Shown here: positions 1 through 24,326 of the stretch, piece by piece
Numbering within the stretch: position 1 is the first letter of the stretch
How the letters are laid out: each line of letters starts with the position of its first letter
From: Nitrospiraceae bacterium
GTDB taxonomy: Bacteria > Nitrospirota > Nitrospiria > Nitrospirales > Nitrospiraceae
Assembly (NCBI GenBank): GCA_019637075.1
Contig: JAHBWI010000011.1
Location: 1-32,312 of the forward strand
Direction of reading: 5' to 3'
Length of the DNA stretch: 32,312 nt
Notes under the pieces: generated by a model
Databases searched by the model: none
Told to the model about the DNA's origin: nothing
Seen by the model: the letters and a program-made list of their open reading frames with translations, nothing else
Position numbers and translations under genes: made by a program

Positions 1-2860
1 CCTGGTGCTCGCCGACGCCCGGCGTCCGCTTGTCCATGCGGTAGGGATCGCCGAAGTTCGACTCGTAAATCTGCACCCAGTCGTTCACCGACCACTGGCT
101 GTGGACCCGGTGGCGGGTCTTCGGAGTGACACAGTAGAACTGGTAGCCCTTCTCCCAAAGTGGATTGGAGAATTGCTTCACCTCCGACCACGACAATTTG
201 ATGTTCCGCACCGTTTTGTCGTCATGGTGCTGCGCCGTGATCGGAATCCCGTAGTCGTCCGGGCGGACGTAGGGGTTACTCGTCATGATCGCGTTCGGGA
301 GGTAGGGCGTACATTCCGGCCCTTCCCGATGCACGATGAAGTTTTCGCCGTACTCGATCGCCTCCGGTTCGATCCGGTAAGCCTCGAGCCGCCCCGAGCG
401 TGTCCACATCGGCTTGGACTCGTTGGTTTCTTCCCAGAGCGGATGGCGCGGATAGGTGCGGCCCATGACCATCCAGCCCTTTTCGCTCTTCAGCATCACA
501 TCGGCCGAGTAGCCGTAGAAGGTGCTGGAGGCATCCAAAATCCGCTGCGCATAGACATCGACGCGGTTCTGGTAGACGAACTGGAATGTGTCGGTCATCC
601 GTTTCTCGCCGGTCATATCGGCCAGCCTGGCCGCCACGCCCGCAAAGGTATCCAGGTCGTTACGCGTGTCATACAGCGGCCGGATGCCGCCTTTCCAAAT
701 CTGCAGCCAGGGGTTGGACACCGTGGCCGTCATCTCCGGATAGGTGAACTCCATCCAGCTGTTGCAGGCCATCGCCACATCGGCATGGTTCACATCGGAG
801 GTCATCTCGATATCTTGGGTCACGATCATCTCGATGTTCGGGTCGACGTTCTTCACCATGTCGTAGTGGTGCTTGGAGTTGTTCAGAATGTTCACATTGA
901 CGACCCAGCGCAGTTTGCTCGGTGAGGGCATGTGGGTCTTGCCGGTGAAGACTTTGCGGCCGTACTTCGGCGTGTTGACGATCAACGCCGTGTCGCCATG
1001 ATTCCAGAATCCCGGCTCTTCACCGTAGTAGTACTTCTTGTAGTGCACCTCTTTCCCGTGCGCCTCCGGGGAGAGGTTCAAGCCCCAGGGATCTTCGCCG
1101 AGATAGACGCTGCAGCCGGCGCCGGACCACGGTGTCGCATTCCAAATCCCGACTTTGTAATTGCCGGACCAGGTATGGCATCCGGTGCCGAACTTGCCGA
1201 TATTGCCCGTCAGCATAAGCACCAAGGCCGCCGCCCGCCCCATCGAGGTCATGTGAAAGTAGTGGCAGACGCCTTCACCGTTGTGAATCGCGGCCGGCTT
1301 GATCGTGCCCGAATCGCGCGCCCACCGGACGATGAGATCCCTCGGAGCTCGATTGATCTGGTGCACCGTATCCAAGTCGTAGTCCTGGAAGTGGATCAAA
1401 TACAGTTGGTAGATCGGCATGACGTCGACCTCGCGGCCGTTGAGCAGCTTGACGCGAAAACTTCCCGTCAGCGCCGGATCGATTCCGGATTCAGTGAAGT
1501 GAAACCCGACCTGTTCACGATGCAACGGAACCGCCTTGCCCTTCCCCAAATCCCACACCATCATCCCGCCGAGCCGTTGAACCTGATCGGCGTTCAGTCC
1601 CTGCACCTTGCCGGAGTAGGACCTTGCGAAATCCGGCAAACGATAATCTTTGACCACATCGCGCGGATCGAGGTATTGGAGGGTGTCGGTCCGCACGAGC
1701 AAGGGCATGTCCGTGAAGCCCTTGATGAAATCGATGTCCTGCATGTTTTCATCGACGATGATCTTGCTCGCCCCCAAGAACAGGGCGCCGTCCGTTTCCG
1801 GCCGCACGGGGATCCAATAGTCCGCGCGGCTCGCCGTCGGGTTGTATTCCGGCGTGATGACGACCAACCGCGCACCCCGCTCCATACACTCGAGCTTCCA
1901 GTGCGCTTCCGGCATCTTGTTCTCGACGAAGTTTTTGCCCCAGCTCGTATTCAGTTTGGAGAAACGCATGTCATTGAGATCGATGTCGCAATTCTGCGTG
2001 CCGTTCCACCAAGGCTGCGACGGGTCCTGGTCCCCGTGCCAGGTGTAATTGTTCCAGTACCGTCCCCCTTGCGCTTGGTCAGGTCCGACTTTTCTGATCC
2101 AACTGTCCAGCAACGGAAGAATGCAGTTGTTCAGGCGTGTGTTCCCGTGTTTGCCCAACAGCCCGAGAATCGGCATGCCCGCGCGGTGCTTGAACGTCCT
2201 CACGCCCGCGCCCTTCATCATCTCGATCATTTCCGGGGCGTAGCCCTGCTCGCGCAACCGCCGCGCGCCGGACTCCCCGCTGTAGCGCGTCCCGATCAGG
2301 ATCATGCCCTTGGCGATATAGGTAAACGCCGTGTCCCATGACACCCGCTGCATGTCATCGAGAAAGCGGGCGTTGAATTTATACTTGGACTTGGTCTCCG
2401 GCGTGAGTTCCGGCGCGCCATCATCCATCCACTGCCTCCAGCCTTTCCGCATCAAGGGTCCCTTCAATCGATAGGGGCCGTAGACGCGGCGGTGGAAGGT
2501 GAAGCCCTTCAAGCACATGCGCGGATTATGGGCGAACGTCCCACGGTTGCCGTAGAGATCTTCATAGGTCTGGTGGTCGTAGTTCTGCTCCACCCGCATG
2601 ACCACACCGTTGCGGACAAAGGCTCTGATCCGGCAGGCGTGGGTGTCATTGGGCGAACAGACCCACGTAAACGACGAGTCATACCGATACTGGTCGTGGT
2701 ACACACGCTCCCACGACCGATCCGGATATTCCCCGAGAGGATTGCCGACTTCGACGACCGGCTGCAGAGCGGTCAAGGCCAAGGCCCTGTCGGCAATGGC
2801 CGCCGCCGCCACCGTCCCCGCCGAAATCTTGAGGAACTGTCTGCGGGAAAACTGCATCAT
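1..2860 (-). CDS. nxrA: Nitrite oxidoreductase alpha subunit NxrA, copy 1 (3' end outside window)
   Basis: NxrA is the molybdenum (bis-MGD) catalytic subunit of nitrite oxidoreductase, which oxidises nitrite to nitrate. About 953 residues are present; Nitrospira NxrA is about 1,150, so the C-terminus lies beyond the left edge. The N-terminus carries a twin-arginine motif (SRRQFLK, residues 5-11) and a short hydrophobic stretch, consistent with Tat export to the periplasm. The N-terminal [4Fe-4S] ligands appear as Cys68-x3-Asp72-x3-Cys76 with Cys116 further on; an Asp in the ligand set is characteristic of this branch of the type II DMSO reductase family. Two ATGs are adjacent (2860 and 2857). 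The GAGGAGG ribosome site lies 5 or 8 bases upstream; the second start would match the spacing of copy 2. It is a clear paralogue of the gene at the right edge and reads away from it. The family call is very secure; the start is uncertain by one codon. Confidence 0.96.
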   Translation of the reverse strand, partial: MMQFSRRQFLKISAGTVAAAAIADRALALTALQPVVEVGNPLGEYPDRSWERVYHDQYRYDSSFTWVCSPNDTHACRIRAFVRNGVVMRVEQNYDHQTYEDLYGNRGTFAHNPRMCLKGFTFHRRVYGPYRLKGPLMRKGWRQWMDDGAPELTPETKSKYKFNARFLDDMQRVSWDTAFTYIAKGMILIGTRYSGESGARRLREQGYAPEMIEMMKGAGVRTFKHRAGMPILGLLGKHGNTRLNNCILPLLDSWIRKVGPDQAQGGRYWNNYTWHGDQDPSQPWWNGTQNCDIDLNDMRFSKLNTSWGKNFVENKMPEAHWKLECMERGARLVVITPEYNPTASRADYWIPVRPETDGALFLGASKIIVDENMQDIDFIKGFTDMPLLVRTDTLQYLDPRDVVKDYRLPDFARSYSGKVQGLNADQVQRLGGMMVWDLGKGKAVPLHREQVGFHFTESGIDPALTGSFRVKLLNGREVDVMPIYQLYLIHFQDYDLDTVHQINRAPRDLIVRWARDSGTIKPAAIHNGEGVCHYFHMTSMGRAAALVLMLTGNIGKFGTGCHTWSGNYKVGIWNATPWSGAGCSVYLGEDPWGLNLSPEAHGKEVHYKKYYYGEEPGFWNHGDTALIVNTPKYGRKVFTGKTHMPSPSKLRWVVNVNILNNSKHHYDMVKNVDPNIEMIVTQDIEMTSDVNHADVAMACNSWMEFTYPEMTATVSNPWLQIWKGGIRPLYDTRNDLDTFAGVAARLADMTGEKRMTDTFQFVYQNRVDVYAQRILDASSTFYGYSADVMLKSEKGWMVMGRTYPRHPLWEETNESKPMWTRSGRLEAYRIEPEAIEYGENFIVHREGPECTPYLPNAIMTSNPYVRPDDYGIPITAQHHDDKTVRNIKLSWSEVKQFSNPLWEKGYQFYCVTPKTRHRVHSQWSVNDWVQIYESNFGDPYRMDKRTPGVGEHQ

Positions 2861-3313: not shown

Positions 3314-4858
3314 TTACGAAACGATCGAACTTGCTCGACGGGCGGGACGGCGGATCGCGAGTTTGTGCATGCGACTGCGCAGCGTGCTCGGAGCGAGTCC
3401 CAGGTGAGCCGCGGCGCCTTCTGAGCCTTCGATCTTCCAATCGGCTATCGTCAACGCGCGAAGAATGTGCCGGCGTTCCTCGTCTTCGAGCGTGTTGACG
3501 CGCTTCGCAACGAGTGTGTGCCCGGCAGGCCGCAAGCCCAACATGGCCGGATCCACTCGCAGCAATCGCTCATGACAGAGGATCAAGGCGCGTTCGACCA
3601 GATTTTCCAACTCCCTGACATTGCCGGGCCAGCCGTATTGAACCAAGCGATCCATCGACTCCGGCTCAAAATCTCCACAGCAACGCTTGAGGCGCCTGGC
3701 ATGCTCGCGCAAGAAATGCCGGGCGAGAAGAGGGATATCCTCCGGACGTTCGCGCAAGGGAGGTAGATACAGCGGAAATACGTTCAACCGATAGAACAGG
3801 TCGCTGCGAAACCGACCCTGCTCGATCCCCGCCGCCAAATCGGCATTGGTCGCCGCGATGATCCGTACGTCGACCGGAACCGGCTTGCTGCCGCCCACCG
3901 GATCGATGAACCCATCCTGCAACACACGCAACAACTTGACCTGCGCGTCGAGCGGCATTTCTCCGATTTCGTCCAGAAACAGAGTCCCCCCGTCCGCGAG
4001 TTCGAACCGTCCGACTCGGCGATGGTCGGCCCCGGTAAACGCCCCTCGCTCATGGCCGAACAGTTCGCTCTCGATGAGCCCGGACGGCAACGCTGCGCAG
4101 TTCAGACGGACGAAGGCCCGTTCACGGCGCGGACTCCAGTCATGGATCGCGCGGGCCAGCACTTCCTTCCCCGTACCGGTCTCACCCGAAATCATCACCG
4201 CCGCGGTGGTGGGAGCCGATCGGCGGGCCAAATCCACCACATGACCAAAAGCCTGACTGCGCCACACCATGTCGTGGTGCTGCGCGGACTTGAGCTCTTC
4301 CGACAAATACACGTTCTCGCGCGCCAACTGGTCTCGGAGCCGGTTGATCTCTTCGTATGCGCGAACATGGGCGATCGCAAGCCCGATCTGCGTCGCGACC
4401 TGCTGAAGAAATTCCAGCACGGCTGGATCAGGTTGACCGGTCTCCACGCTCCCGATATTCAACGTGCCGAGACAGGCGTCTTGCACCACCATCGGCAGGT
4501 TGATCATGCGGCCGAGCCCTTCCTCGAGGTAGCAGTCGTCCTCTAAAAAGACCCGCTGCTCGCGAAGATTGGGTCGCACATGGACACACTGATGATCATA
4601 GACCCATCCCACCGCGCTGCGCGCATGGGGAATGCAGGCATCGCGTCTGAGCACAACCCGCGACAGATTAGTTTCAACTGCGTAGAACTTGAAGGCGTCG
4701 GAGTCGGAATCGTAGACGGTCACGCCCGCGCGTTCCCATCGAATGATGTGCGCGAGTTGATCGGTAATGGCGCGGAACAAACTCGTGCTGTCGCGCTGAG
4801 AATTCAGCTCGTTGGTCACCGACAACAGCGTGCGATAATTCAAATCAACGCTATTCAT
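3314..4858 (-). CDS. Sigma-54-dependent transcriptional activator with N-terminal GAF domain (FhlA-like)
   Basis: This 514-residue enhancer-binding protein should open sigma-54 promoters by ATP hydrolysis. An N-terminal GAF domain (about residues 25-175) replaces the receiver domain, so it probably responds to a small ligand and not to a kinase. The AAA+ core has Walker A GETGTGKE (225-232), the sigma-54 contact loop GAFTGA (272-277) and Walker B FLDE (294-297). A Fis-type helix-turn-helix closes the protein (about 460-503). I chose the ATG at 4858; an upstream TTG in frame at 4888 would add ten residues with no better ribosome site. The gene lies 453 bases upstream of nxrA copy 1 on the same strand, and 228 bases downstream of the FNT-efflux operon. 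The likely target is nxrA-1, by position only. The ligand is unknown. Confidence 0.93.
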   Translation of the reverse strand: MNSVDLNYRTLLSVTNELNSQRDSTSLFRAITDQLAHIIRWERAGVTVYDSDSDAFKFYAVETNLSRVVLRRDACIPHARSAVGWVYDHQCVHVRPNLREQRVFLEDDCYLEEGLGRMINLPMVVQDACLGTLNIGSVETGQPDPAVLEFLQQVATQIGLAIAHVRAYEEINRLRDQLARENVYLSEELKSAQHHDMVWRSQAFGHVVDLARRSAPTTAAVMISGETGTGKEVLARAIHDWSPRRERAFVRLNCAALPSGLIESELFGHERGAFTGADHRRVGRFELADGGTLFLDEIGEMPLDAQVKLLRVLQDGFIDPVGGSKPVPVDVRIIAATNADLAAGIEQGRFRSDLFYRLNVFPLYLPPLRERPEDIPLLARHFLREHARRLKRCCGDFEPESMDRLVQYGWPGNVRELENLVERALILCHERLLRVDPAMLGLRPAGHTLVAKRVNTLEDEERRHILRALTIADWKIEGSEGAAAHLGLAPSTLRSRMHKLAIRRPARRASSIVS

Positions 4859-5086: not shown

Positions 5087-6592
5087 TCAGCGGAGCGGAG
5101 CGAGCGGGCGTCCCGATCTCGTGTCTTCGCCTGATCGAAGTCGGGCCGGACTCCGTCCACCTTCAGGCCCCACCAGGCCGGAGCCCGGTCCGATCGAGGG
5201 CGACAATGGAAAGGACGAGGAACCGAGATCCGGACTTCTTTGCGGAATGATCGAGGACGAGGGCCGATGGTCGCGCCGCAGATCGCGCCCCGGAGCAACG
5301 GTAGCGTGATGCGAGGACAATCCCGAGTCGCCGCCGGAACGGAACCGGTTGACGTCGCTCATGAGGTCGTCCGCCGCCAGTCCCACAGCCTCATCCCGAG
5401 GCTCGATGACCAGGTTCGCCGCCATGACTTCCTCCGCCAGAGATTCGGCGGAGGGCAACTCGTCGGCATACACATCGGTTTCATACTCCGCCGTCGATGG
5501 GGTAGCCAGGGACGACCAGACCGACTGCCCGCCCTCGGAGACGTTGATCTTGGTCACGGTCGAAAGCCCGGGTCTCACGGGATGTTCGCGGATTTCATCT
5601 TGCGGCAATGCGATCCGCACCGGGACGCGCTCCACAATATGAATGAAGTTTCCGGTCGAATTGTCGGGCGGCAACAGCGCAAACGCACTCCCTGTCCCCG
5701 GAACTAACCCTTCGACCGTGCCATGATACGTATGCCTGGTGCCATAGAGATCCACACTCACCAGGGCCGGCTGCCCGGGCCTTACATGCTGCAATTCGGT
5801 CTCGCGCAGGTTGGCCTCGACCCACAAATGATCGAGCGGCACGATGGTCATGAGCGGCGCACCCGGCTGAACCCGGTCACCGACTTGCGCTTTCCGCTTC
5901 GCCACATAGCCCGAGATCGGCGCGCGGATCTGCTGGCGCGTGTATTCGAGATAGGCTTCGATGAGTTGGTGCTTCGCCAGTTCGACGGCCGGATGGGCCA
6001 TGATCGTCGTTCCGCCGATTTGCGCGTCCAGCGTGTCGAGTTCGGCCTGCGTCTCCCGCCACTCGGCCTCGAGCGCCATGATCTTGTCCGACGTGTTCTC
6101 CACGATTTGCTTCGAGACCGCGCCGCTCTGCACGGCGCGCCGGTACCGTTCCATGTCGTGCCGCGCCAATTCGAGCCGCGCCACGCGCGACGCCAGCCGC
6201 TCGGCCAACTGTTTGCGGGTCATGAACAGGGCCGCGATGCGCCGCACTTCCTCGCCCAAATGCCCGCGCGCCCGTCCGAGCGCCGCGTAGGCCTGGTGCT
6301 CGTCGAGCCGGAGCACGAGGTCGCCGCGATTGACGAATTGTGTTTCCTCCGCAAGGACTTGGGTAATGATGCCCGTGGCCTGCGCCGCAACGGGTACGAG
6401 ATTGCCCGTCACGTATGCATTGTCGGTCTTCAGCCAGTAGCGGTCGTAGCTCATCCAGTAGCTCAGGTACCCGACCGCGGCAAGAAGGGCGATCAGCGCC
6501 ACTAAGAGAAGCCGCCGATTCCTCTGCGCTCGAATTTCCTTGGGGTGCATGCGAACCGGACCGGATGGAGTCGTAGGAGTCGTCGTGGTCAT
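5087..6592 (-). CDS. HlyD/EmrA-family membrane fusion protein with an unusual C-terminal tail
   Basis: This is the periplasmic adaptor of a tripartite efflux pump, bridging the MFS pump and outer-membrane factor encoded just upstream. It has a cytoplasmic N-terminus, one membrane anchor (about residues 28-47), a first lipoyl half (ATGIITQVLAEE...), a coiled-coil hairpin, the second lipoyl half (RAPISGYVAKRKAQVGDRVQ) and the beta-barrel domain (LWVEANLRETELQHVRPGQ). Homology-like sequence ends near the YETDVYADELPSAESLAEEV segment. After that come about 100 residues rich in Ser, Pro, Arg and Gly with no recognisable domain, making 501 residues against roughly 390 usual for EmrA. The tail may be real or may follow loss of an earlier stop. 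The start is 4 bases after the NodT-type gene's stop, so it is the last gene of the operon. Confidence 0.9.
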   Translation of the reverse strand: MTTTTPTTPSGPVRMHPKEIRAQRNRRLLLVALIALLAAVGYLSYWMSYDRYWLKTDNAYVTGNLVPVAAQATGIITQVLAEETQFVNRGDLVLRLDEHQAYAALGRARGHLGEEVRRIAALFMTRKQLAERLASRVARLELARHDMERYRRAVQSGAVSKQIVENTSDKIMALEAEWRETQAELDTLDAQIGGTTIMAHPAVELAKHQLIEAYLEYTRQQIRAPISGYVAKRKAQVGDRVQPGAPLMTIVPLDHLWVEANLRETELQHVRPGQPALVSVDLYGTRHTYHGTVEGLVPGTGSAFALLPPDNSTGNFIHIVERVPVRIALPQDEIREHPVRPGLSTVTKINVSEGGQSVWSSLATPSTAEYETDVYADELPSAESLAEEVMAANLVIEPRDEAVGLAADDLMSDVNRFRSGGDSGLSSHHATVAPGRDLRRDHRPSSSIIPQRSPDLGSSSFPLSPSIGPGSGLVGPEGGRSPARLRSGEDTRSGRPLAPLR

Positions 6593-6596
6593 GAAA

Positions 6597-8105
6597 CTAG
6601 CCTCGTGTGGCCTTCGGCCGTTTGTCGATATCGGGATTGTGATAGCCGCCGCCCAGCGCTTCGATCAGATCGACCGCCGCCACCAATTGGTCGCTTTCCA
6701 ATCCCTTCAATACATATTCCTGTTCCAGCACCGGATGCCGATGCCGCAAGACTTCGCGATCATCGTCGAGCCCGGTAGTGAGCCGTACCTTAGCCAATCG
6801 CCAATCTTCGCCGAGCGAAGCCAAGAGCCGTTTGTGCGATTGCAGCATCTCCCGGGTGGCCTGCCAGGCGCTCAGGCTGTCCGCCACCTCACGGAGCGCA
6901 TCGAGCACGGTCTCGTTGTACAACTCCACCGCGGCATCGTACTCGGCCCGCTGCGCTGCGAGTTCTCCTCGCAACCGTCCGCCCTCGAACCAGGGCAGGC
7001 GGAATCCCGGCGCCAAGCCATAGGCGAAACTTTGGCCGCGGAACAACAGATTCGCCAGCTTGTCGGCGCCTTTCGTCAAGGTCAATGCATTGAACCCCAC
7101 AAACCCGGTCAGATCGAACGTCGGATAAAACTGGGTCTTGGCGACCTTCACCAGACGCGCGGCGGAGTCGGCGCGGTAGAGCGCCGCCGCGAGATCGGGA
7201 CGTCGCACCAACAACCCGCTCGAGAGATGGTCGGGCACGGGAAGTTGCTCGGGGATCACGACAGAGGACCCAGCAAACAGGTGCCGGGCTTCATCCGGCC
7301 CCTTGCCCGTCAACCGAGCCAGCAGATTGCGCTGTACATCCAACTGATCGCGCACGGCGGCCTGCCGCTTCACGGCAGCCTCATAGTCCGCCACTGCAAG
7401 TTTCACCGGCTGATCATTGTCGAGCCCCAAGCGATACCGGGTTTCCGCCAACCGACGCAGGTCACGTCGAATTCCGACGATGGTGTTCACGATGTCCAAC
7501 TGCTGACGCAAGGCTTGGCCGCGGAAATACGCCCGCGCGACGCCGGTCGACAATCGGAGGCGCACTTCCGCCCGTTCCGCCTCTTCAGCGGCGGCTTGTC
7601 CAAGCGCCGCTTCCATCGTCGCCCGGTTCTTGCCCCAGAAGTCGAATTCGTAACGAAAGCTCAGCGGGTTGATCACGCCAAGCAGGATCTTTGCCCCGGC
7701 GACTTCGGGATTCAGCGCGGCGAATACGCCGTGTTGAGAAATCCGTTCATAGGTCAGAGAGGCATCCGCTTCGAGGAACGGCAACAATCGCGCGCCCTCG
7801 ACCTTGACCAAGGCCTGGGCTTCGCGCAATCGAGCCGAAGCCAGCTTCAAACTGGGGTTGTCCCTAAGGGCGGTCTCCACCAGACCGTTCAACTCAGAAT
7901 TGCCGAACTGCTCCCACCAGCGGTCGTCAGGCCACTGCTGCAGACGCTGCTCCACCTCCGCCAGCGTCTCCTTGATCTCCGGTGGTTCGAGATATTCCGC
8001 CGCGGGGTCGCCTTTGGGAATCCAGGCGCAGGCTCCCGTCACGAGACCGGGGAGACACAGCAGCAGCAGCGCGCCTCGGCGCAATTTCGCCCCCAAGCCG
8101 TTCAT
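6597..8105 (-). CDS. NodT-family outer-membrane efflux protein (TolC-like)
   Basis: This 502-residue outer-membrane channel is of the RND/EmrAB-associated NodT family and forms the exit duct of the tripartite pump. The N-terminus has a signal peptide ending in LVTGAC, an atypical but plausible lipobox. The two repeated halves are visible: LVETALRDNPSLKLASARLREAQALVKVEGA begins the first, and the second contains VRRPDLAAALYRADSAARLVKVAKTQFYPTFDLTG, the usual NodT hallmark. The start at 8105 overlaps the MFS gene stop as ATGA, indicating translational coupling; an upstream in-frame start at 8147 would lie deep inside the MFS gene. Substrate cannot be told from sequence. Confidence 0.92.
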   Translation of the reverse strand: MNGLGAKLRRGALLLLCLPGLVTGACAWIPKGDPAAEYLEPPEIKETLAEVEQRLQQWPDDRWWEQFGNSELNGLVETALRDNPSLKLASARLREAQALVKVEGARLLPFLEADASLTYERISQHGVFAALNPEVAGAKILLGVINPLSFRYEFDFWGKNRATMEAALGQAAAEEAERAEVRLRLSTGVARAYFRGQALRQQLDIVNTIVGIRRDLRRLAETRYRLGLDNDQPVKLAVADYEAAVKRQAAVRDQLDVQRNLLARLTGKGPDEARHLFAGSSVVIPEQLPVPDHLSSGLLVRRPDLAAALYRADSAARLVKVAKTQFYPTFDLTGFVGFNALTLTKGADKLANLLFRGQSFAYGLAPGFRLPWFEGGRLRGELAAQRAEYDAAVELYNETVLDALREVADSLSAWQATREMLQSHKRLLASLGEDWRLAKVRLTTGLDDDREVLRHRHPVLEQEYVLKGLESDQLVAAVDLIEALGGGYHNPDIDKRPKATRG

Positions 8106-9700
8106 GGCATTTCCTCCACGAGCCCCTCGCCGCGCGCTTCCCGCCACCTATCCTCAGCGGTAGCAGGGACAGCCGAGGTGGTCGGATGGGCCAGCCAAAC
8201 CCAAGCGCTAAGACCGATGAACAATGCGCTGGCAACCAGAAACGCATCGTTGATCCCAAGGATCGCCGATTGCTGTTTGATCAACAGCCCCAGTTTGGCC
8301 TGCACCTCGGAAGAACTCAGGCCTGACGACGCCAATTTTGCCGACAATCGATCCATTGCGTCGAACGAGATGGAGGTGCGCCCCCCGAAGTGATCCGCGA
8401 GGTGCAGCCGATGAAACGGAGCCCGGCGGAACATGACGATCCCTTGAAACGTGATCCCGAAGGCGCCTGCTGCAATCCGCAACAGCGTCGCCACTTCCGC
8501 CGCACGCGTAAGCATCGGCCCTGACAGGCCGTGCAGGGTCAGCACGGTCCACGGCGCAAAGAACGAACCCAGGAAGACTCCTTCGATCAGCATCGGCCAA
8601 AAGAGTTCGTCGTAGGAATGAGGATCATCGAACAGGCCCAGCCAATAGAAGGTCCAAGCGAAACCCAATCCGTTCAGGCATGCGAGCCAGCGTGCGTCGA
8701 GGTACTTACAGAGGTAGTGCATCACCGCAATGGTCGGCGCACCAAGCAGCACCAACGGCATCAGCGCCAGTCCCGCAAGTTTCGACGAGTAGCCCAAGAC
8801 GATTTGGATTTGGACGGTCAAGAGCGACAGCAGCCCTTGAATCGAGAAGAAACCCAGCGTCAGCCCGACGATGCCGATCAGAAAGTTTCGTTGGCGAAAG
8901 AGTCGAAAATCGATGGAAGGATGACGTTCGCCCAATTCCCAAATGATGAAACAGGGCACCGCCAGGAGGAGCACGACCGCGACTGCCTGGAGAATCGGCG
9001 CATCCAGCCAATCGAAATCGTTGCCCATATTGAGAAACGTTTGAAGCCCCAGCAATACCGTCGCCAACAGCAGAAACCCCACCAGATCGAAACGGGCATA
9101 GGAACGCCGGAATCCCCGGCCGTACAACAGTGCGCCGAGCACGGCGATGATGATCACCGTCAGCACGAAATCGAGATAGAACAGGAATCGCCAGCCGAGC
9201 ATGTAGGCGATGTACCCGCCCACGGGCATGCCGATCGTGAAGGGCGCGATACTGAACAGCCCCCAAATGCTGAGCGCCACAGCCTTCAGTCGCTTGGGAT
9301 ACTCATTCAGCAACATCGACTGCGCCAACGGCAGCGTGATCCCGCCTGCGATACCTTGAATGACGCGCGCCGGAACGAATTGGGTGAGAGTCTCACTCGC
9401 ACCGCACAGATACGACGCCCCGCTGTAGACAACGAAGGCCGAAATCAGCAATCGGTAATCGCCGATACGTCCGGACAGATACCGAGCCAACGGAAATCCC
9501 AAGGCCAGGCCGATCATGAAATCCGTCTGGGCCCAGGTCAAAAAGCTGGGCAGCACCCCGCCCAAGTCTCCCGCGACATGCGGCAGCAGCGCGATGTACG
9601 AGCCGGCGTTGAATAGCACGACGATATGCGACAGGCCGAGCGCGGCATTGAACAGGACGAACCGCCAGCCTCGCAACCGTCTGAGATATACAACCGCCAT
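8102..9700 (-). CDS. MFS transporter, DHA2 (EmrB/QacA) family, 14 membrane helices
   Basis: This is the inner-membrane pump of the tripartite system, a proton-driven exporter. At 532 residues with about 14 hydrophobic segments it fits the DHA2 family. The loop 2-3 motif is SGRIGDYRLL and the helix-5 antiporter motif region reads GMPVGGYIAYMLGWRFLFYLDF. Typical DHA2 phrases such as ARVIQGIAGGITLPLAQSMLL and FLLLATVLLGLQ are present. The ribosome site is GAAGGA, 8-9 bases before the ATG. It sits 16 bases after the FNT channel gene and overlaps the outer-membrane gene by 4 bases, so all four genes should be co-transcribed. The operon partner suggests the substrate may be linked to nitrogen-oxide metabolism, but nothing in the protein shows this. 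Confidence 0.93.
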   Translation of the reverse strand: MAVVYLRRLRGWRFVLFNAALGLSHIVVLFNAGSYIALLPHVAGDLGGVLPSFLTWAQTDFMIGLALGFPLARYLSGRIGDYRLLISAFVVYSGASYLCGASETLTQFVPARVIQGIAGGITLPLAQSMLLNEYPKRLKAVALSIWGLFSIAPFTIGMPVGGYIAYMLGWRFLFYLDFVLTVIIIAVLGALLYGRGFRRSYARFDLVGFLLLATVLLGLQTFLNMGNDFDWLDAPILQAVAVVLLLAVPCFIIWELGERHPSIDFRLFRQRNFLIGIVGLTLGFFSIQGLLSLLTVQIQIVLGYSSKLAGLALMPLVLLGAPTIAVMHYLCKYLDARWLACLNGLGFAWTFYWLGLFDDPHSYDELFWPMLIEGVFLGSFFAPWTVLTLHGLSGPMLTRAAEVATLLRIAAGAFGITFQGIVMFRRAPFHRLHLADHFGGRTSISFDAMDRLSAKLASSGLSSSEVQAKLGLLIKQQSAILGINDAFLVASALFIGLSAWVWLAHPTTSAVPATAEDRWREARGEGLVEEMP

Positions 9701-9716
9701 CGATACGTCCTTCTCT

Positions 9717-10592
9717 TCAGAACGAGGGGGAATACCCGCTGCGATCGCTCGCGGTGCTTGCCTGCGGAACGGCCACCGGCGCCACCGGTGCCGGGGCAGG
9801 AGGCACCGCCCGATGCGCCCAATAGATCGCCCCGCCGGTCAGCACCGCGCCCCCTACCAGGTTGCCCAGCGTCACCGGAATCTGGTTCCACAACCACCAA
9901 TCCGCAAACGTAACGTTCGCGCCCAGCAAAATTCCGGCCGGAATGACGAACATGTTCACTACCGCATGTTCGAATCCCTGCATGAAGAACAAGACCGTCG
10001 GTCCCCAAATCGCAACGATTTTCCCGACCAGGGAGGTCGTTGAAAAGGCGAAAACCACGGCCAAACTCACCATCCAATTGCACAACACCGCCTTCGTAAA
10101 TACGGTCAGGAAACCGGCCGTGCCGTGATGCGCGTAGTAGGTCGTTTTGGCCTCGGCGATCGCCACCAACTTGGTGCCCACGGCAGACAGGGGCGCATCG
10201 CCACCGGTGGTGACTACGATCCCCAACAAGACCGCATACAGGACGCTTCCCATCAGGTTGCCCAGGAAGACCCAGGCCCAGTTCGTCACGACGCGCGCCG
10301 GCGAGCGCTCCTCGGGATTCTGCATGGCCGCACAAGGAATCAAGGCGAAGCTGCCGGTGATGATCTCGGTGCCGAGCAACACCGCCAGGCACAACCCGAA
10401 CGGAAACAACAAGGCCCCCACCATCCAGAGGCCTGTCTCGACCGCGGCGGTCACCGCCATACTCGTGGCCACCCCCAGATAGGCACCGGCCAACATGCCT
10501 CGCAGAATGAGTTGACTGGGAGGCAACTGCAATTTCGCGCAGCCGGCCGCCACCATGCTCTTGACCACTTCTTGCGGTTTCACATAATCCAT
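9717..10592 (-). CDS. FNT-family nitrite/formate channel (NirC/FocA-like)
   Basis: This pentameric channel moves small monovalent anions (nitrite, formate) across the inner membrane. The 291 residues contain six hydrophobic segments. The conserved omega-loop region reads LGTEIITGSF (73-82), and the central His sits in GFEHAVVNMF (His209), as in FocA and NirC. The C-terminal tail is Pro/Ala-rich and shows no domain. I chose the ATG at 10592, with AAGGAGG 5 bases upstream; a GTG at 10610 lies before that ribosome site and is less likely. In a nitrite oxidiser, nitrite transport is the likelier role, but formate cannot be excluded from sequence. It is the first gene of an operon with a tripartite efflux pump and has a consensus sigma-54 promoter 60 bases upstream. 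Confidence 0.93.
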   Translation of the reverse strand: MDYVKPQEVVKSMVAAGCAKLQLPPSQLILRGMLAGAYLGVATSMAVTAAVETGLWMVGALLFPFGLCLAVLLGTEIITGSFALIPCAAMQNPEERSPARVVTNWAWVFLGNLMGSVLYAVLLGIVVTTGGDAPLSAVGTKLVAIAEAKTTYYAHHGTAGFLTVFTKAVLCNWMVSLAVVFAFSTTSLVGKIVAIWGPTVLFFMQGFEHAVVNMFVIPAGILLGANVTFADWWLWNQIPVTLGNLVGGAVLTGGAIYWAHRAVPPAPAPVAPVAVPQASTASDRSGYSPSF

Positions 10593-10651: not shown

Positions 10652-10667
10652 AGCAAGCCACGTGCCA
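10652..10667 (-). promoter_or_regulatory. Sigma-54 promoter of the FNT-efflux operon (perfect consensus)
   Basis: On the minus strand the site reads TGGCACG-TGGC-TTGCT, matching TGGCACG-N4-TTGCW at every defined position. Transcription would begin near 10641, about 49 bases before the FNT start codon. The divergent neighbour is a kinase gene followed by an NtrC-type sigma-54 activator. This is the strongest regulatory site in the window. Confidence 0.85.
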
Positions 10668-10770: not shown

Positions 10771-10793
10771 TCCGCACGGCCGCACGGTGCGGA
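10771..10793. promoter_or_regulatory. Inverted repeat, probable activator site upstream of the FNT operon
   Basis: TCCGCAC-N9-GTGCGGA is a perfect 7-base dyad lying 130-152 bases upstream of the predicted FNT start site. That is the normal position for a sigma-54 enhancer-binding dimer. The direct repeat CCGCACGG also occurs twice within it. The best candidate protein is the NtrC-type regulator encoded at 12828-14219, by proximity only. Confidence 0.5.
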
Positions 10794-10894: not shown

Positions 10895-12814
10895 ATGCGG
10901 GCACTGACTCAGTTTCTGACCGATTTACCCATCGCGCGAAAGCTCTTTCTCGCCTCCCTCATCCCGGCCCTGACTCTGCTCATCCTCAGCATCATGACCT
11001 ATCGGAGCGTAGCGACGTTCTCGGAGGACGAGGGGCAGTTGAACAGCCTCTACTACTCCCAGCGGCTCGCCTCGGAGTACCTCCGCCTCGTCGTCGACCT
11101 GGAGACGGGGTTCCGGGGCTTCGTGCTTACTCGCCAGGAACGATATTTGTTTCCCTATCGCACGGCGCAGGATCACGTGCTCAACCTTGGACGGACGCTG
11201 GAAGGCCAGGTGGCCGATTACCCGGATCAGCACGCGCTCCTGTCATCCGTGCAGCAACTGGTGAAGCAGTTTGTGACAGAGAAAGACCGGCTGATCGAGA
11301 CGGTAAAAGCCGGACATTTCGATGAGGCCCGGAAGTACATCGAGGAAGGTAAGGGTCGTGTCCTGATGCTGCAGATTCGGCAGGACATGGCACGGTTCGA
11401 GCATTTGGAAGAAGCGGCGCTGAATCAACGGGTCGTGAAACTCGGACAAGACCGGGACACGATGTTGACGGTCATCATGGGGGGCGGCCTCTTCGCCCTG
11501 ATCTGTATGGTCTCGGCGTTGCATTTCATTGCACGGTCGATCACCACACCGCTCAAGCGGTTGGCAACCGCCGTGGGCGCGTCACAGCCCGGCTTGATTC
11601 CCGTGGCGCCTGCGTTGGAACGAGCGGACGAAATCGGGCACCTCTCACGCGCAATGCATGACATGAGCCGAGCCATCCAAACCCACATCGCAACCGTGGA
11701 AAGGTCGGAAGCCGAACTCCGACAACTCAACACCGACCTGGCCTCGTCTGAGGCAAAGTACCGCACAATCGTCGACCATGCGCCCTTCGGCATCTTCACC
11801 ACGCAAGGCATGCGCTTGATCTTCAGCAACCGCTACAACAGCGCCCTCGCCGGACTCGATCCCGGTGAGGAACAAGACCCCGAATCGGTCCGTCGCGCCA
11901 TCCACCCCGAAGATCGCGACCGGGTGCTGACCGAATACGCCGAGGCCGTCGAACAGGGCCACCCCTATGAAACAGTGTTCCGATTCCTGCACGAAGACGG
12001 ATCGATCCGCAAAGTGCTGAGCCGTCGCATCCCCATCACCGATGCGTCCGGTCAAGTCACGCTCTACCAGGGATTCAATATCGACATTACGGAGTTGGAG
12101 CTGATGCAGGCCCGACTGAGCCGGGCCGAACGACTGGCCACTTTGGGCCAGGTCGCGGCCGGTATTGCCCACGAAATCCGCAATCCGCTGGTCGGCATCG
12201 GATCCACGACGTCGCTGTTGTTGGACGATATCGACCCGAACGATGCGCGCCGCCCGGATCTCCAGACCATTCTTCAGGAGACCAAACGTCTCGACCGGAT
12301 CGTAAATCAGATCATCGACTACGCGCGGCCGCGGGAATTGGTGGCGGTGCCGTTCGATCTGGCCACGCTCGTGCAGGAAGTAACCAAGGTGTTGGAGGGA
12401 CCGCTCTCAAACAAGGGACTGCATGCGGCCGTCACTGTTCCCGCTACCCCGCCGATCCTCCAGGCCGATCGCGATCAGATGAAGCAGGTGCTGCTCAACG
12501 TGGTCCAAAACGCGATCGACGCCTCCGCGCAGGACCAGACGATCGACATCGGCATCAGCCTTCAGGACCAGGCGATCGAGCCGAGCGTCACGTTGACGGT
12601 GTCGGACCACGGCGTCGGCATCAGCCCCGCCCATCTGCCGCATGTCTTTGAGCCGTTCTTCACCAGCGGCAAACGTCAGGGCACCGGATTGGGCCTCGCG
12701 ATCTGCCGAAACATCCTCGAATCGCACGGCGGCACGATCACGCTGGAAAGCGCCCCGGGCAAGGGCACCACCGTCCGCATGTGGATTCCACTGCGGCAAC
12801 AGATACGCATGTAA
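10895..12814 (+). CDS. Sensor histidine kinase, CHASE3-HAMP-PAS-HisKA-HATPase
   Basis: This 639-residue membrane kinase is the probable phosphodonor of the NtrC-type regulator encoded 13 bases downstream. It has a membrane helix at about 17-37 and a CHASE3-like extracytoplasmic helical domain (about 40-185, with ETGFRGFVLTRQERYL near residue 70). A second helix (about 190-212), HAMP and a PAS domain (about 285-400) follow. The H-box AHEIRNPL has His426; the N-box region is NVVQNAIDAS, G1 is DHGVGI (571-576), then FEPFFTS and GTGLGLAI. The architecture resembles NtrB/AtoS-type kinases that feed sigma-54 activators. CHASE3 ligands are generally unknown, so the signal is open. It is divergent from the FNT operon. 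Confidence 0.93.
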   Translation: MRALTQFLTDLPIARKLFLASLIPALTLLILSIMTYRSVATFSEDEGQLNSLYYSQRLASEYLRLVVDLETGFRGFVLTRQERYLFPYRTAQDHVLNLGRTLEGQVADYPDQHALLSSVQQLVKQFVTEKDRLIETVKAGHFDEARKYIEEGKGRVLMLQIRQDMARFEHLEEAALNQRVVKLGQDRDTMLTVIMGGGLFALICMVSALHFIARSITTPLKRLATAVGASQPGLIPVAPALERADEIGHLSRAMHDMSRAIQTHIATVERSEAELRQLNTDLASSEAKYRTIVDHAPFGIFTTQGMRLIFSNRYNSALAGLDPGEEQDPESVRRAIHPEDRDRVLTEYAEAVEQGHPYETVFRFLHEDGSIRKVLSRRIPITDASGQVTLYQGFNIDITELELMQARLSRAERLATLGQVAAGIAHEIRNPLVGIGSTTSLLLDDIDPNDARRPDLQTILQETKRLDRIVNQIIDYARPRELVAVPFDLATLVQEVTKVLEGPLSNKGLHAAVTVPATPPILQADRDQMKQVLLNVVQNAIDASAQDQTIDIGISLQDQAIEPSVTLTVSDHGVGISPAHLPHVFEPFFTSGKRQGTGLGLAICRNILESHGGTITLESAPGKGTTVRMWIPLRQQIRM

Positions 12815-12827
12815 GGAGACCACGTTC

Positions 12828-14219
12828 ATGCGGGCTACGATTTTCGTCACCGACGACGAGCCGGCCATTCGCTCCGCCATCGTCAAACGACTCACGCGGC
12901 GGCAACATAACGTCACCGGCATCGAATCCGGAGAAGACCTCATCAAGGCAGTCTCGCTCAACCTGCCCGACTTGATCCTGCTCGACCTGAAAATGCCTGG
13001 GCTGAGCGGGCTTGAAACCCTTCGTCAGATTCGGCCGTTGGCGCCGCAGGCCCTGGTGATCATGTTGACCGCCTACGGAACGGTAGAGGACGCCGTTGAG
13101 GCCATGCGGCTCGGGGCTTATGACTTCTTGATCAAGACCGTCGACCTGGGCGGAATCGATCCCGTGGTGGACCGCGCGATCGAGTTTCTGGCGCTACGCC
13201 ACCGGATGGAATACACGCTGGAAGACCAGAACAACGCCTATGCCCTGTCCAACATCGAAGCCCACAGCCCGGTCATGCAACACCTGCTCGCGCAGGTGCG
13301 CGACGTAGCCGAGAACGCGAAATCGACTGTGCTCTTGCAAGGCGAGACCGGGACCGGCAAGGAATTTGTCGCCCGCGTCCTCCATTGTAACGGCCCACGC
13401 GCCCGCGGCCCTTTCGTCAGCGTGAACTGCACCGCCATCCCCCGCGACCTCTTCGAAAGCGAACTGTTCGGGTATGAGCGCGGCGCCTTTACCGGCGCCC
13501 ATCAGCGCAAGCGCGGCCTCCTGGAGAAGGCGGAAGGCGGCACGATCTTTCTGGACGAAATCGGCGATCTTGACCCCTCCATGCAAGCGAAGCTGCTGCG
13601 CGTCCTGCAAGACCGCACCTTTCGCCGGCTCGGCGGAACCGAAGACCTCTCGGTTGATTTCCGCCTGATGACGGCCACGAATCGGGACCTGAAGAAGGAT
13701 GTCGCGCGCGGAACATTCCGGGAGGACTTATATTTCCGGTTGAACGTCGTGACCTTCGAGCTTCCCCCCTTGCGCGTCCGGACCGACGATATTCTGCCGC
13801 TCTGTATGCAGGCCGTCGTGCGATACGGCAAGGAGTTCGGGAAAGATGTCACGGACATCGACGCGGAAGCCAAGGCGCTCCTACAACGGTATAGCTATCC
13901 GGGCAACATCCGCGAGTTGCACAACATCATCGAACGCGCGATGATTCTGTGTCATGACAAAACGCTGACGGTAGGCTGTCTGCCCAAGGAACTCCACGAT
14001 ATGCCCCCTCCCGTCGCGGTGGGAGTGCCCCAGGGGCAGGAACAGACGATCCGAATCGAGATGACGCTAGGACGCCAGACCCTGGCCGACGTGGAATCGG
14101 CCATCATCGACGAGGTCGTCCGCCTCTCCGAACACAACAAGACCCTCGCGGCGAAACGCCTGGGCCTTACACGATTCGCGCTCGATCGACGGCTCAAGAA
14201 GCAGGCCGACTTCCCCTAA
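12828..14219 (+). CDS. NtrC-family response regulator, sigma-54-dependent
   Basis: This 463-residue activator is paired with the kinase just upstream. The receiver domain (1-120) has the acidic pocket DDE, phospho-acceptor Asp53 (LLDLKMPG), Thr81 and Lys103; the Pro that usually follows this Lys is replaced by Thr. The AAA+ domain has Walker A GETGTGKE (172-179), GAFTGA (219-224) and Walker B FLDE (241-244). A Fis-type helix-turn-helix lies at about 420-458 (LAAKRLGLTRFALDRRLKK). The start is the ATG at 12828 with AAGGAG 9 bases upstream; longer readings extend back into the kinase gene. The divergent FNT-efflux operon with its perfect sigma-54 promoter is the natural target, by position. Confidence 0.94.
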   Translation: MRATIFVTDDEPAIRSAIVKRLTRRQHNVTGIESGEDLIKAVSLNLPDLILLDLKMPGLSGLETLRQIRPLAPQALVIMLTAYGTVEDAVEAMRLGAYDFLIKTVDLGGIDPVVDRAIEFLALRHRMEYTLEDQNNAYALSNIEAHSPVMQHLLAQVRDVAENAKSTVLLQGETGTGKEFVARVLHCNGPRARGPFVSVNCTAIPRDLFESELFGYERGAFTGAHQRKRGLLEKAEGGTIFLDEIGDLDPSMQAKLLRVLQDRTFRRLGGTEDLSVDFRLMTATNRDLKKDVARGTFREDLYFRLNVVTFELPPLRVRTDDILPLCMQAVVRYGKEFGKDVTDIDAEAKALLQRYSYPGNIRELHNIIERAMILCHDKTLTVGCLPKELHDMPPPVAVGVPQGQEQTIRIEMTLGRQTLADVESAIIDEVVRLSEHNKTLAAKRLGLTRFALDRRLKKQADFP

Positions 14220-17915: not shown

Positions 17916-18233
17916 ATGCGTAGCAGCACAAAGACATCCAGCAAGCCCCTCCGCCGTCGCGTGGCGGCCTCCGCGCACCGAACGGGTGAAGCCAGCAAGT
18001 CGAGCACGAATGGGCGCATGCGCGTCCTCACGAAGCGGGAGCAGGAAGTGCTGTCGCTCGTGGGCGCCGGCCTCACTTCCCGCCAAATCGGCAAGAAATT
18101 GAGAATCTCCGCCCGCACGGTCGAAGTACACCGCTCGCACGTGATGCGCAAGCTCAACGTCGGCAGCCTCGTCGAGCTCTTGCGCACCGCCTTGCAGCAC
18201 CGACTCATCGAGTGGGGCTTTCCGCATGCATGA
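17916..18233 (+). CDS. Orphan LuxR-type helix-turn-helix protein
   Basis: This 105-residue protein is a basic, Ser/Arg-rich N-terminus (1-35) followed directly by a LuxR/GerE DNA-binding domain (LTKREQEVLSLVGAGLTSRQIGKKLRISARTVEVHRSHVMRKL). There is no receiver domain, so it cannot be controlled by standard phosphorelay on itself. The ribosome site is AAAGGAG. It overlaps the outer-membrane gene of the metal efflux operon by 8 bases, so it probably regulates that operon or is regulated with it. Confidence 0.88.
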   Translation: MRSSTKTSSKPLRRRVAASAHRTGEASKSSTNGRMRVLTKREQEVLSLVGAGLTSRQIGKKLRISARTVEVHRSHVMRKLNVGSLVELLRTALQHRLIEWGFPHA

Positions 18234-19548
18234 GACGCTTCCCACCTCGAAACGTTGCTCCGAACCTCGCTCATGGCCGCGCGACGTCTTCGCGGTGGTA
18301 CTGCTGCTTGCCTGGTCCCCTTGGGCCATTCCGACCGGCTTTGCAGCGGACCCGATTGTTCCCAGTTACTCCCTGAAATCGGTACTGGACCTCGCCCTGG
18401 CGCGCAATCCGACATTGGGCAGCGCGACCGGCCTGATCGAGGAACACCAGGGGCACCGGACCGCGGCGGAGGCTTACCCCAATCCCACGGTCAGCGGGAA
18501 CCTGGGACGCGGAGAAATCCGAGACACCGGACGAGCGAATCTGAAAGAGTCGCTTACGCGGGAATCGCTCACGGAGTTCAGCGCCACGATCGGCCAGCCG
18601 CTGGAATGGCCGGCTAAACGTGCGGCCCGGCAAAGTGCAGCCGACGCCGGCGTCGCGGCCGCCAGCACGGGATTGGTGGAAACACAACTGAACCTGGCCG
18701 CAGGCGTGAAAATCGCGTTCTATGAATTGCTGTTGGCCCAGCGCGATCTGGAATTGGCCAAACAGAATGGTCAGATCGTGGAGGATGTTCGTCGGATCGT
18801 CAATACACGCGTGAAACTGGGCGAGGCTCCCCGTTTCGAAGCGGTCAAGGCCGAAGTCGAGGTGTTAAAGGCGAATCAAATCATTACGCGCGCGGACAAC
18901 GCGGTGCGAGTCGCCCGGGTGACCCTGGATACGCTAACCGCCGGAGCCTTGGGTGGCGACTACGCGATCCACGGCGATTTCGAGTCGTTTCGGCAGGACA
19001 TGTCGCTCAAGGCCCTGTTGGCCCGCACGGTCGAGCAGCATCCAACCCTCCAGCGACTCACGAAGCAGATCGAACAGGCCGACCGTACCGTCGAACTCGA
19101 ACGGCACTCACGCGTTCCCAACATCACAGTCAGCGGCTCCTATTGGCGGGAGATCGGGCGTGAAGCGGTCTCCGCCGGCCTAAGCCTACCCACCCCGCTC
19201 TGGTACAACCGCCAGGGAGAAATCGCCGCTGCCCTCGGAAACAAACGCCGGGAAGAGGCGGAGTGGCTGCGGGCTCGCAACGGGCTCATGAAGGAGGTGA
19301 ACCAACACTTTCAAGACGCCCAGACGACCGCGACCTTGATCGACGTCTTCGAAAAGGGCCTCCTCAAGCAAGCACAGGAAGCACTGCGGGTCGCGCAGTT
19401 CAGCTTTCAGCAGGGCGCCTCGAGCCTCCTGGAGGTCCTGGACGCGCAACGAGTCCAGCGGGAAATTCTAATGGAGTATGCCCAGGCACGCTTCGACTTG
19501 TCCGTCTCGCTCGCTCGGCTCGAACGGGCGGTGGGAGGACTTCTGTGA
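18226..19548 (+). CDS. Outer-membrane factor of a CzcCBA/CusCBA-type efflux system
   Basis: This 440-residue TolC-fold protein is the exit duct of the RND metal pump encoded next. The N-terminus has a signal peptide with likely cleavage after GFAA. The body shows long amphipathic helices, and both halves begin with CzcC-like phrases (LDLALARNPTLGSATGLIEEHQGHRTAAEAYPNP; SFQQGASSLLEVLDAQRVQREILMEYAQARFDLSVSLARLERAVG). The stop overlaps the GTG start of the fusion-protein gene. The start is the ATG at 18226 inside the regulator gene, giving translational coupling. Confidence 0.92.
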   Translation: MHETLPTSKRCSEPRSWPRDVFAVVLLLAWSPWAIPTGFAADPIVPSYSLKSVLDLALARNPTLGSATGLIEEHQGHRTAAEAYPNPTVSGNLGRGEIRDTGRANLKESLTRESLTEFSATIGQPLEWPAKRAARQSAADAGVAAASTGLVETQLNLAAGVKIAFYELLLAQRDLELAKQNGQIVEDVRRIVNTRVKLGEAPRFEAVKAEVEVLKANQIITRADNAVRVARVTLDTLTAGALGGDYAIHGDFESFRQDMSLKALLARTVEQHPTLQRLTKQIEQADRTVELERHSRVPNITVSGSYWREIGREAVSAGLSLPTPLWYNRQGEIAAALGNKRREEAEWLRARNGLMKEVNQHFQDAQTTATLIDVFEKGLLKQAQEALRVAQFSFQQGASSLLEVLDAQRVQREILMEYAQARFDLSVSLARLERAVGGLL

Positions 19549-20744
19549 ATCACACACATTTCTGTCGGTTCCGTCGGCTCATCAGCGGCGCGGGGTGTCT
19601 GCTTGCCCTCGTGAGCCTGACGGCCTGCGACAGCCCGCAACCGGGGGATGCCGCCGTAAAGGCTCATTCCGCGCAGCCGACGAAGGGCCTCGCCAGGCTC
19701 TCCCCCCAAGAACTGATCAGCGCCGGGATCGCAACCGAGATCGTCAGCAAGCGAGAGTTTCGGTCGGCGCGAGAGTTTCCTGGCACCGTGACACCCAATC
19801 ATCATGCGCTGGCGGATGTCACGACGCTCGTCCGAGGCCGGGTAGTGGACGTGTATGCCGACCTCGGGCAACAGGTGAAGGGAGGAGACCTGCTCGCCAT
19901 CCTCTACAGCGGCGAACTCGGTATGGCTCAGAGCGCATACCTCAAAGCGGACGCGAAGCTCTACGTGGCGGAACGTTCCTACGAGCGCGCCAAGATGCTG
20001 CTGGCCGAAAAAGTGATCGGGCTGGCGGAAGAACAGCGACGCAAGGGGGAGTTGCTGACGACACAGGCCGAAAAGCGCGAAGCCCGGGATCGCCTGGAGC
20101 TCTACGGGATGTCCGACGACCAAATCCGGAAGCTCGACCGAGATCACACGATCCGTTCCTATGTCCCGATCGTGGCGCCTTTCGACGGCCGGGTCATTGC
20201 GCGCAACCTCACCAAGGGCGAGGTCGTCGAGACGACTGAAAAGCTTTTCGTCGTCGCCGATCTGTCGGTCGTCTGGGTATTGGCGAACATTCCGGAGAAG
20301 GACATTCCTTTCATCCGGCCGGATGCCGCCGCAACCGCCCAGCCGGTCGACATCCTCGTCAATGCCTACCCGGACGAGGTCTTCCACGGCAAGATCACCT
20401 ACGTCGGCGACGTGCTCGATGTCGCGACCCGCACGATGAATCTCCGGCTGGAGTTGCCGAACCCCGACAAGAAACTGAAACCAGAGATGTTCGCGACGAT
20501 CCGCGTCTGGTCCGATCCGGAACCCAATGTGCTCATGGTGCCGGAACGGGCCGTGCAGCGGGATCGGGAGCGACGCTTTGTCTTCGTCCAGCGCGAGCCC
20601 AACGTCTTCGAAGCCCGCGACGTCCGCCTCGGGCCGTCGAACGGCCGCGATGTGAAGGTCCTCGACGGCCTCTTGGAAGGCGAGACGGTCGTCACCAACG
20701 GCGCCTTCGTCCTCAAATCCGAACTATTCGGAGAACAGATCTAA
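19545..20744 (+). CDS. RND efflux membrane fusion protein, CzcB/CusB type
   Basis: This 399-residue periplasmic adaptor joins the RND pump to the outer-membrane channel. The signal peptide ends in a lipobox-like LVSLTACDS, so it is probably a lipoprotein. It has an HlyD-type first lipoyl half (VRGRVVDVYADLGQQVKGGDLLAILYSGELG), a helical hairpin, the second half (IVAPFDGRVIARNLTKGEVVETTEKLFVVADLSVVWVLANIPEKDI) and a C-terminal membrane-proximal domain. The start is GTG at 19545, overlapping the previous stop as GTGA, with GGGAGG 6 bases upstream; this start decides the signal peptide. No metal-binding His-rich N-terminus is seen. Confidence 0.93.
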   Translation: MNHTHFCRFRRLISGAGCLLALVSLTACDSPQPGDAAVKAHSAQPTKGLARLSPQELISAGIATEIVSKREFRSAREFPGTVTPNHHALADVTTLVRGRVVDVYADLGQQVKGGDLLAILYSGELGMAQSAYLKADAKLYVAERSYERAKMLLAEKVIGLAEEQRRKGELLTTQAEKREARDRLELYGMSDDQIRKLDRDHTIRSYVPIVAPFDGRVIARNLTKGEVVETTEKLFVVADLSVVWVLANIPEKDIPFIRPDAAATAQPVDILVNAYPDEVFHGKITYVGDVLDVATRTMNLRLELPNPDKKLKPEMFATIRVWSDPEPNVLMVPERAVQRDRERRFVFVQREPNVFEARDVRLGPSNGRDVKVLDGLLEGETVVTNGAFVLKSELFGEQI

Positions 20745-20748
20745 TCTG

Positions 20749-23700: not shown

Positions 23701-23949
23701 CTAGTTCCGTTGGCTGTCGCCCACGGCATCGGCTCGGAAGTGCAACGGCCGCTCGCGATCGTCGTCATCGGCGGTCTAGTGAGCTCCACCCTGTTGACGC
23801 TTGTCGTCTTGCCGGTGCTGTACCGCTGGCTCGACCGGTCGGATGAAAGCCACACCAGGCCGACATCCCCACAGGGGGAAGGGCGAGAGGGCGAGGCCGG
23901 ATGGGCAGAGGAAGGGCTCGCGTTGCAGAGCGGACGCGACCGGCATTAA
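20749..23949 (+). CDS. Heavy-metal efflux RND pump, CzcA/CusA family
   Basis: This 1,066-residue inner-membrane proton antiporter is the pump of the CzcCBA-type operon. It has the expected 12 hydrophobic segments and two large periplasmic loops. The helix-4 signature reads [15 protein letters not shown] (408-422, Asp414), fitting the AIGxxxDxxxxxxEN class associated with Cu/Ag pumps. However, the periplasmic stretch [25 protein letters not shown] resembles the divalent-cation CzcA group and lacks the CusA methionines I would expect there, so the metal is undecided. The last ~35 residues ([18 protein letters not shown]...) look like translated repeat DNA. It starts 4 bases after the fusion-protein stop. 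Confidence 0.94.
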
Positions 23950-24011
23950 GGCCGGCGGGTTGCTGCAGCGACGCGACCCGGCTGTGTGGACCGCAGGGAG
24001 GAAGCCAATCT

Positions 24012-24326
24012 ATGGCCTGGGGATACTTGGTGCTGGCAGGGCTCTTCGAGGTTGCGTGGGCCGTTGGGTTGAAATATTCCGATGGCTTCACCAGGCCGTG
24101 GCCCTCGATGATCACGATACTCTCGATCTGCGCCAGCATGGGACTGCTTGCCCTTGCCCTCAAAAGCATTCCCGTTGGAACGGGCTACGCGATCTGGACC
24201 GGCATCGGCATCGCCGGGACCGCAGTACTGGGAATGGTATTGTTCGCTGAATCGGCCTCGGCCACGCGCCTGATTTCCCTCCTCCTGATCGTCGCCGGGA
24301 TTCTCGGCCTGAGGGCCTCGTCATGA
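24012..24326 (+). CDS. Small multidrug resistance family exporter, Gdx/SugE-like
   Basis: This 104-residue protein has four membrane helices and the essential Glu13 (LFEVAW). The phrases [16 protein letters not shown] and [19 protein letters not shown] are those of the SugE/Gdx branch, whose characterised members export guanidinium by proton antiport. The ribosome site is GGGAGGAA, and longer readings upstream have no membrane sequence. It lies 62 bases after the RND gene and is probably in the same operon. No convincing guanidine riboswitch precedes it. Confidence 0.9.

Follow-up and report, generated by a model that had tools for sequence, protein, structure and literature searches.

The window analysed here is a stretch of 32,312 nucleotides from a Nitrospiraceae bacterium, and on its minus strand lie four genes arranged head to tail. 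The first encodes a formate/nitrite transporter (FNT) channel of NirC-alpha-like type with Ile at FocA position 89 (positions 9717–10592; PF01226, 1.4e-62); the PF01226 match is full length, with a score of 211.6 bits against a cut-off of 34.6, and places the protein in the FNT family. It is followed by a DHA2/EmrB-type MFS efflux transporter (8102–9700; PF07690; NCBIfam EmrB; efflux_EmrB, 2.5e-67), which also matches the solved EmrB 8zar at 3.6e-67, then by a NodT-type outer-membrane factor (6597–8105; TIGR01845, 2.6e-95) and an EmrA-type periplasmic adaptor (5087–6592; EmrA model, 1.9e-90). The three junctions measure 16, −4 and +4 nt, and the second is an overlap of the NodT start with the DHA2 stop (ATGA). 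Coordinates and spacings given in the original prediction proved exact on re-examination.

A DHA2 transporter, an EmrA/HlyD adaptor and a TolC/NodT factor encoded together constitute a tripartite EmrAB-OMF pump, and the profile matches to all three parts bear out, at the family level, the earlier description of the pump as complete. The scores fall below the strict curated EmrB and EmrA cut-offs, and the pump is therefore termed EmrAB-type and not EmrAB. Like tripartite MFS pumps of the EmrAB-TolC type, it has a DHA2 transporter, an EmrA adaptor and an outer-membrane factor; it differs in that the gene for a NodT-type factor separates those of pump and adaptor within one operon, and in that an FNT gene leads the operon behind a predicted sigma-54 promoter. 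The adaptor ends in a C-terminal tail some 100 residues long (encoded at 5087–5400) with the motif RSPDLG..PLTPSIGPGS..LGPEAGRSPSRLR in most relatives; the tail is missing in several other branches of the Nitrospiraceae. No convincing terminator was found in the gap between the EmrA gene and the next gene, where the terminator search gave results at chance level and the fold was weaker than those of shuffles.

Regulatory genes flank the operon on both sides. Divergent from the FNT gene is a CHASE3-HAMP-PAS histidine kinase (10895–12814, plus strand; Pfam), followed by an NtrC-type response regulator with receiver, sigma-54 AAA+ and Fis HTH domains (12828–14219, plus strand; Pfam); the open reading frame of the latter opens at 12642, and 12828 is the likely start. 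On the other side lies a GAF-AAA+ sigma-54 activator of the FhlA/NifA type (3314–4858, minus strand; Pfam; NCBIfam FhlA 399 bits, NifA 381 bits). Two nxrA genes frame the window, one at each end. The left copy, coding for the alpha subunit of nitrite oxidoreductase (2–2860, minus strand; subunit A of 7b04, 1294 bits), comes next downstream after the pump operon and the GAF activator and runs off the window, as does the second copy (29618–32308, plus strand), a member of the molybdopterin oxidoreductase family whose N-terminus closely matches the left one. Two long open reading frames antisense to the left nxrA (5–925 and 932–2341, plus strand) are probably spurious. The plus strand also carries an RND metal efflux system of the CzcCBA/CusCBA type and, after it, a ChaA-like cation/proton antiporter (18226–25551); in other genera, RND pumps are repeatedly found close to the operon.

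The linkage of channel and pump was followed across 175 genomes from this bacterium's own family, the Nitrospiraceae as judged from named relatives. Close FNT orthologues (E below 1e-100) are present in 46 genomes, and in 45 of these the pump adjoins the FNT gene, with genome G012 counted from its locus L081 and adjacency in G017 inferred from the ends of two contigs over which the locus is split. The exception is G173. A chance adjacency of the two is ruled out by this retention, and the association is far from being absent in all relatives, the outcome that would have spoken against the original prediction. The full order FNT-DHA2-NodT-EmrA was read in loci of eight genera, with junctions of 11–76 nt, mostly −4 nt and about −4 to 25 nt; the −4 overlap is kept in nearly all relatives. 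One genome (G022) has two copies of the locus, nxrA included (L052 and L053), which possibly reflects a mixed assembly or a duplication.

Phylogenetic trees place all 31 pump-linked FNTs sampled in one clade (support 100/97), with the G173 protein as sister. With divergent pump paralogues as the root, the DHA2 tree nests operons that have no FNT gene (L072–L077) within FNT-bearing ones. The simplest history is therefore one joining of channel and pump and one loss, such that the FNT-less pump clade would derive from an FNT-bearing ancestor. The FNT and DHA2 trees conflict for L061 and L062, which indicates that channels or pumps have been exchanged and makes a strict co-adaptation of the two doubtful.

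Outside the Nitrospiraceae, FNT relatives are not found beside a DHA2-EmrA-NodT pump, and the unit is in this respect as unusual as originally proposed. Among 75 non-Nitrospira loci with FNTs 46–58% identical, some of them on short contigs, there were no NodT or EmrA relatives near the FNT gene and one weak DHA2 match, 6 kb away. Across the phylum, a close FNT is present in just two more genomes (loci L188 and L189); the pump is absent in L188 and none was seen in L189. L188, from another family of the same order, has its FNT near glutamine synthetase adenylyltransferase-like reading frames and an FhlA-like sigma-54 activator. A locus of Domibacillus antri (L135) carries two FNT genes close together on the same strand (6295–7062 and 8001–8762).

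A sigma-54 −24/−12 promoter, TGGCACGTGGCTTGCT (TGGCACG-N4-TTGCT), is predicted at 10652–10667 on the minus strand, 59 nt ahead of the FNT start. It has no mismatch, and is the sole site in the window with one mismatch or fewer; the 4.06 Mb genome has three perfect sites, this one included. Sites with up to one mismatch show no genome-wide excess over a reversed-pattern control, so a single box would not have been proof. An alignment of 19 upstream regions also reveals a conserved upstream activating sequence, CGCACCGTGCGGCCGTGCG, at 10773–10791 (minus strand), with the pattern CGCACnGTGCG-n3/4-GTGCG, some 105 bp ahead of the box. Across 27 loci, a sigma-54 box with up to two mismatches lies within the 130 bp upstream of the FNT gene in 23, where shuffles predict 0.05, and the enhancer with up to two mismatches is present in 20, where they predict 0.1; both expectations ignore the kinship of the loci. 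The box is kept at −72 to −102 in relatives, and in the FNT-less operons it stands before the DHA2 gene. A random match is ruled out by this conservation across loci. A perfect box with its GG and GC elements 10 bp apart, an enhancer upstream of it and two flanking genes of the bEBP type are what a sigma-54-dependent promoter would be expected to show, and together with the conserved junctions the conserved box supports the proposal of one operon under one such promoter.

The enhancer appears to be tied to the kinase/regulator pair, since its sites track the kinase genes. Exact enhancer sites number two in the genome of the window, and the reversed control has none. The family as a whole has 137 such sites, of which 69 have a CHASE3 kinase orthologue within 20 kb, 21 of them with no FNT gene near. 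Of the 69 genomes with enhancer sites, 62 carry the kinase; the significance of this co-localization is inflated by the relatedness of the genomes. The kinase itself lies within 10 kb of 39 of 47 FNT copies, and an NtrC-type two-component pair usually adjoins the operon in relatives, in several arrangements. It is likely that the CHASE3 kinase and its NtrC-type partner act through the CGCACnGTGCG enhancer.

The same enhancer, with a sigma-54 box some 80–100 bp further on, was also observed at L182, L178, L170–L175, L180 and L184, ahead of an RND pump (L182), kinase/regulator pairs and small membrane proteins, and this suggests a regulon. A reading of the operon as part of a general envelope or toxicant stress response, in which the CHASE3 pair governs a number of efflux systems and the FNT plays a minor, accessory part, such as balancing anions for a proton-driven pump, would fit these further targets. 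It would also fit the resemblance of the kinase to AtoS/ZraS in profile matches and the survival of a pump clade that has no FNT. Yet the FNT is retained as the first gene of the operon in at least eight genera, and nxrA is adjacent in g1/g13; the general stress reading is unlikely on balance. An RND pump excepted, no stress genes beyond the operon and its regulators were found to recur near it in other genera.

The nxrA gene is in the equivalent place in 12 of 13 loci examined from g13, the nearest large genus, and this adjacency is confined to the g1/g13 lineage, with none in the stretch read for loci of g14–g20. The GAF-AAA+ activator lies between the pump operon and nxrA in the lineage of the window; it is also found directly upstream of FNT-less pumps in other lineages. 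No sigma-54 box precedes nxrA in the window, and relatives have weak boxes with three mismatches only. In Nitrospira moscoviensis, a NifA-like activator, NITMOv2_4531, lies upstream of the dominant nxrAB and is among the most transcribed genes (PMC6606698). The activator at 3314–4858 is likened to it by description, as a NifA-type sigma-54 activator upstream of nxr; the arrangements differ in that the N. moscoviensis regulator is upstream of nxrB/nxrA, whereas here nxrA directly follows and the pump operon is on the other side.

The pore of the channel provides clues to its substrate. His209, Thr91, Phe202, Asn172 and Asn262 are present in all 31 pump-linked copies, and alignment to FocA and NirC of Escherichia coli shows V212, R37, K167, N113 and E208, the pattern of the NirC-alpha subfamily (PMC5525234). 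G92, F202 and H209 are likewise shared with NirC-alpha proteins (Mukherjee et al., 2017; PMC5525234). The residues that define the subfamily are V212, R/K37, K/R167, V/L90, F/Y79 and G92 (Table 4 in PMC5525234); the operon FNT has V212, R37, K167 and G92, but differs at 79, which is Leu in place of Phe/Tyr, and has Ile at 90. The pump-linked copies share the Leu at 79, whereas 22 of 25 non-Nitrospira relatives have Phe. Position 89 (FocA numbering) is Leu in 99.9% of 2206 FNTs (PMC5525234); it is Ile in 30 of the 31 pump-linked proteins, and Leu in L081, in G173 and in all 25 outside relatives. Both 79 and 89 are situated in the cytoplasmic slit.

Gene context points in the same direction. NirC-alpha relatives are genetically linked to nitrite reductase or cyanase, unlike the operon FNT with its efflux pump. 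Outside the Nitrospiraceae, the neighbours of FNT relatives are nirBD and nasA in Paracoccus, nirBD in Ideonella and nirB in Nitrospinota and Neobacillus, as well as siroheme synthase and cyanate hydratase (cynS) genes. Nitrite is probably the substrate of the channel, as judged from its residues and from gene context, and cyanate is a fair alternative. The link to nitrite proposed originally thus gains support from the NirC-alpha residues, from relatives beside nirB, NirA or cynS, and from the adjacency of nxrA.

Bicarbonate may also be carried, since the best solved relative is LCIA (110 bits, followed by FocA with 76 and NirC with 47), a bicarbonate-linked protein. This match, the FhlA score of the adjoining activator, which is its best, and the use of formate by Nitrospira (PMC8407350) would together favour a formate or bicarbonate channel that serves alternative energy metabolism or carbon supply. 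That role is very improbable given pore residues that are NirC-alpha-like and not those of FocA or FdhC, and given the relatives beside nirB, NirA and cynS. The genome of the window encodes two further FNTs, of which the first adjoins a NirA-type reductase and the second, on contig C2, a formate dehydrogenase-like molybdopterin enzyme; with this separate paralogue at hand, the operon FNT is unlikely to be a formate channel.

Nitrite might instead be taken up for assimilation, with the FNT feeding cytoplasmic NirA under nitrogen limitation and an unrelated housekeeping pump merely sharing its promoter. The orthologue in G173 lies between NirA and AmtB on one side and GlnA-GlnD on the other, as expected of such a role; FNT relatives occur in nirBD operons; and the genomes of genus g14 lack any further nirC-type channel of the C8 kind. 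The genome of the window and most g13 genomes, on the other hand, already own a nirC linked to a nirA-type gene. The retention of the pump link in 45 of 46 genomes and a gate residue altered in the pump-linked copies only also speak against an assimilatory function, and it is judged improbable.

The distribution of the unit with respect to ammonia oxidation is of interest. AMO matches occur in 61 of the 175 genomes and in none of the 46 that bear the FNT. One genus (g15) is mixed, with eight FNT-bearing genomes, all AMO-negative, and 49 AMO-positive ones; the contrast represents few independent events, as the g15 loci that have the FNT group together as one clade in the DHA2 tree. AMO genomes also almost never carry the assimilatory nirC, accounting for one of its 53 carriers, and the pattern may therefore stem from comammox organisms having lost nitrite uptake in general. 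The pump is kept, with no FNT, in five AMO-positive genomes. The best reading is that the FNT-pump unit belongs to canonical nitrite oxidizers. Absence from amoA-bearing genomes, together with the two flanking sigma-54-type regulators, the enhancer and the nxrA neighbour, goes beyond the original prediction.

How the parts might work together can be outlined as follows. The CHASE3 two-component pair would sense an envelope signal, bind the CGCACnGTGCG enhancer and open the sigma-54 promoter, which alone would drive both the FNT channel and the DHA2-EmrA-NodT pump. The NirC-alpha-type channel would move nitrite, or a similar anion such as cyanate, across the inner membrane in a direction set by the gradient, and the proton-driven pump would expel an organic toxicant, taking it from the cytoplasm to beyond the outer membrane. 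With the channel setting cytoplasmic nitrite and the pump clearing weak acids or nitrosated products, the two might keep the cytoplasm tolerable in cells that oxidize nitrite in the periplasm.

The linkage of the operon and its regulatory signals are well supported; a role in nitrosative stress is inferred. That the operon is a sigma-54-controlled unit for nitrite homeostasis and detoxification in canonical nitrite-oxidizing Nitrospira has somewhat less than an even chance; the detoxification role and the cargo of the pump are proposed more tentatively still. The existence of a pump clade that has no FNT counts against this reading as a whole, as does the periplasmic location of NXR, since nitrite oxidation itself then needs no transporter (PMC7522533). 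We know of no channel gene in the operons for MdtEF-TolC and MexEF-OprN, which are RND systems, in contrast to the MFS pump here. These two provide a precedent for efflux pumps in nitrosative stress, and a likeness, as functional speculation only, in the proposed export of nitrosated or toxic products (PMC10333786, PMC8562477). A bolder proposal, in which the Ile89-gated nitrite channel and the MFS pump form one device that drives nitrous acid or a nitrite-derived compound past the outer membrane, is a long shot; the literature searched contains no account of such coupling in FNT proteins. The parts are all of known kinds. What appears to be new is that an FNT is joined to an MFS tripartite pump in a conserved unit, as no description of an FNT-EmrAB-NodT operon was found in the open-access literature searched.

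Nitrospira is a key organism in nitrification and wastewater treatment, and how nitrite oxidizers tolerate nitrite is an unsettled question. The operon, with a promoter, enhancer and sensor of its own, offers a conserved candidate that can be tested, and its FNT provides research on this channel family with a naturally occurring variant at a gate residue that is almost invariant.
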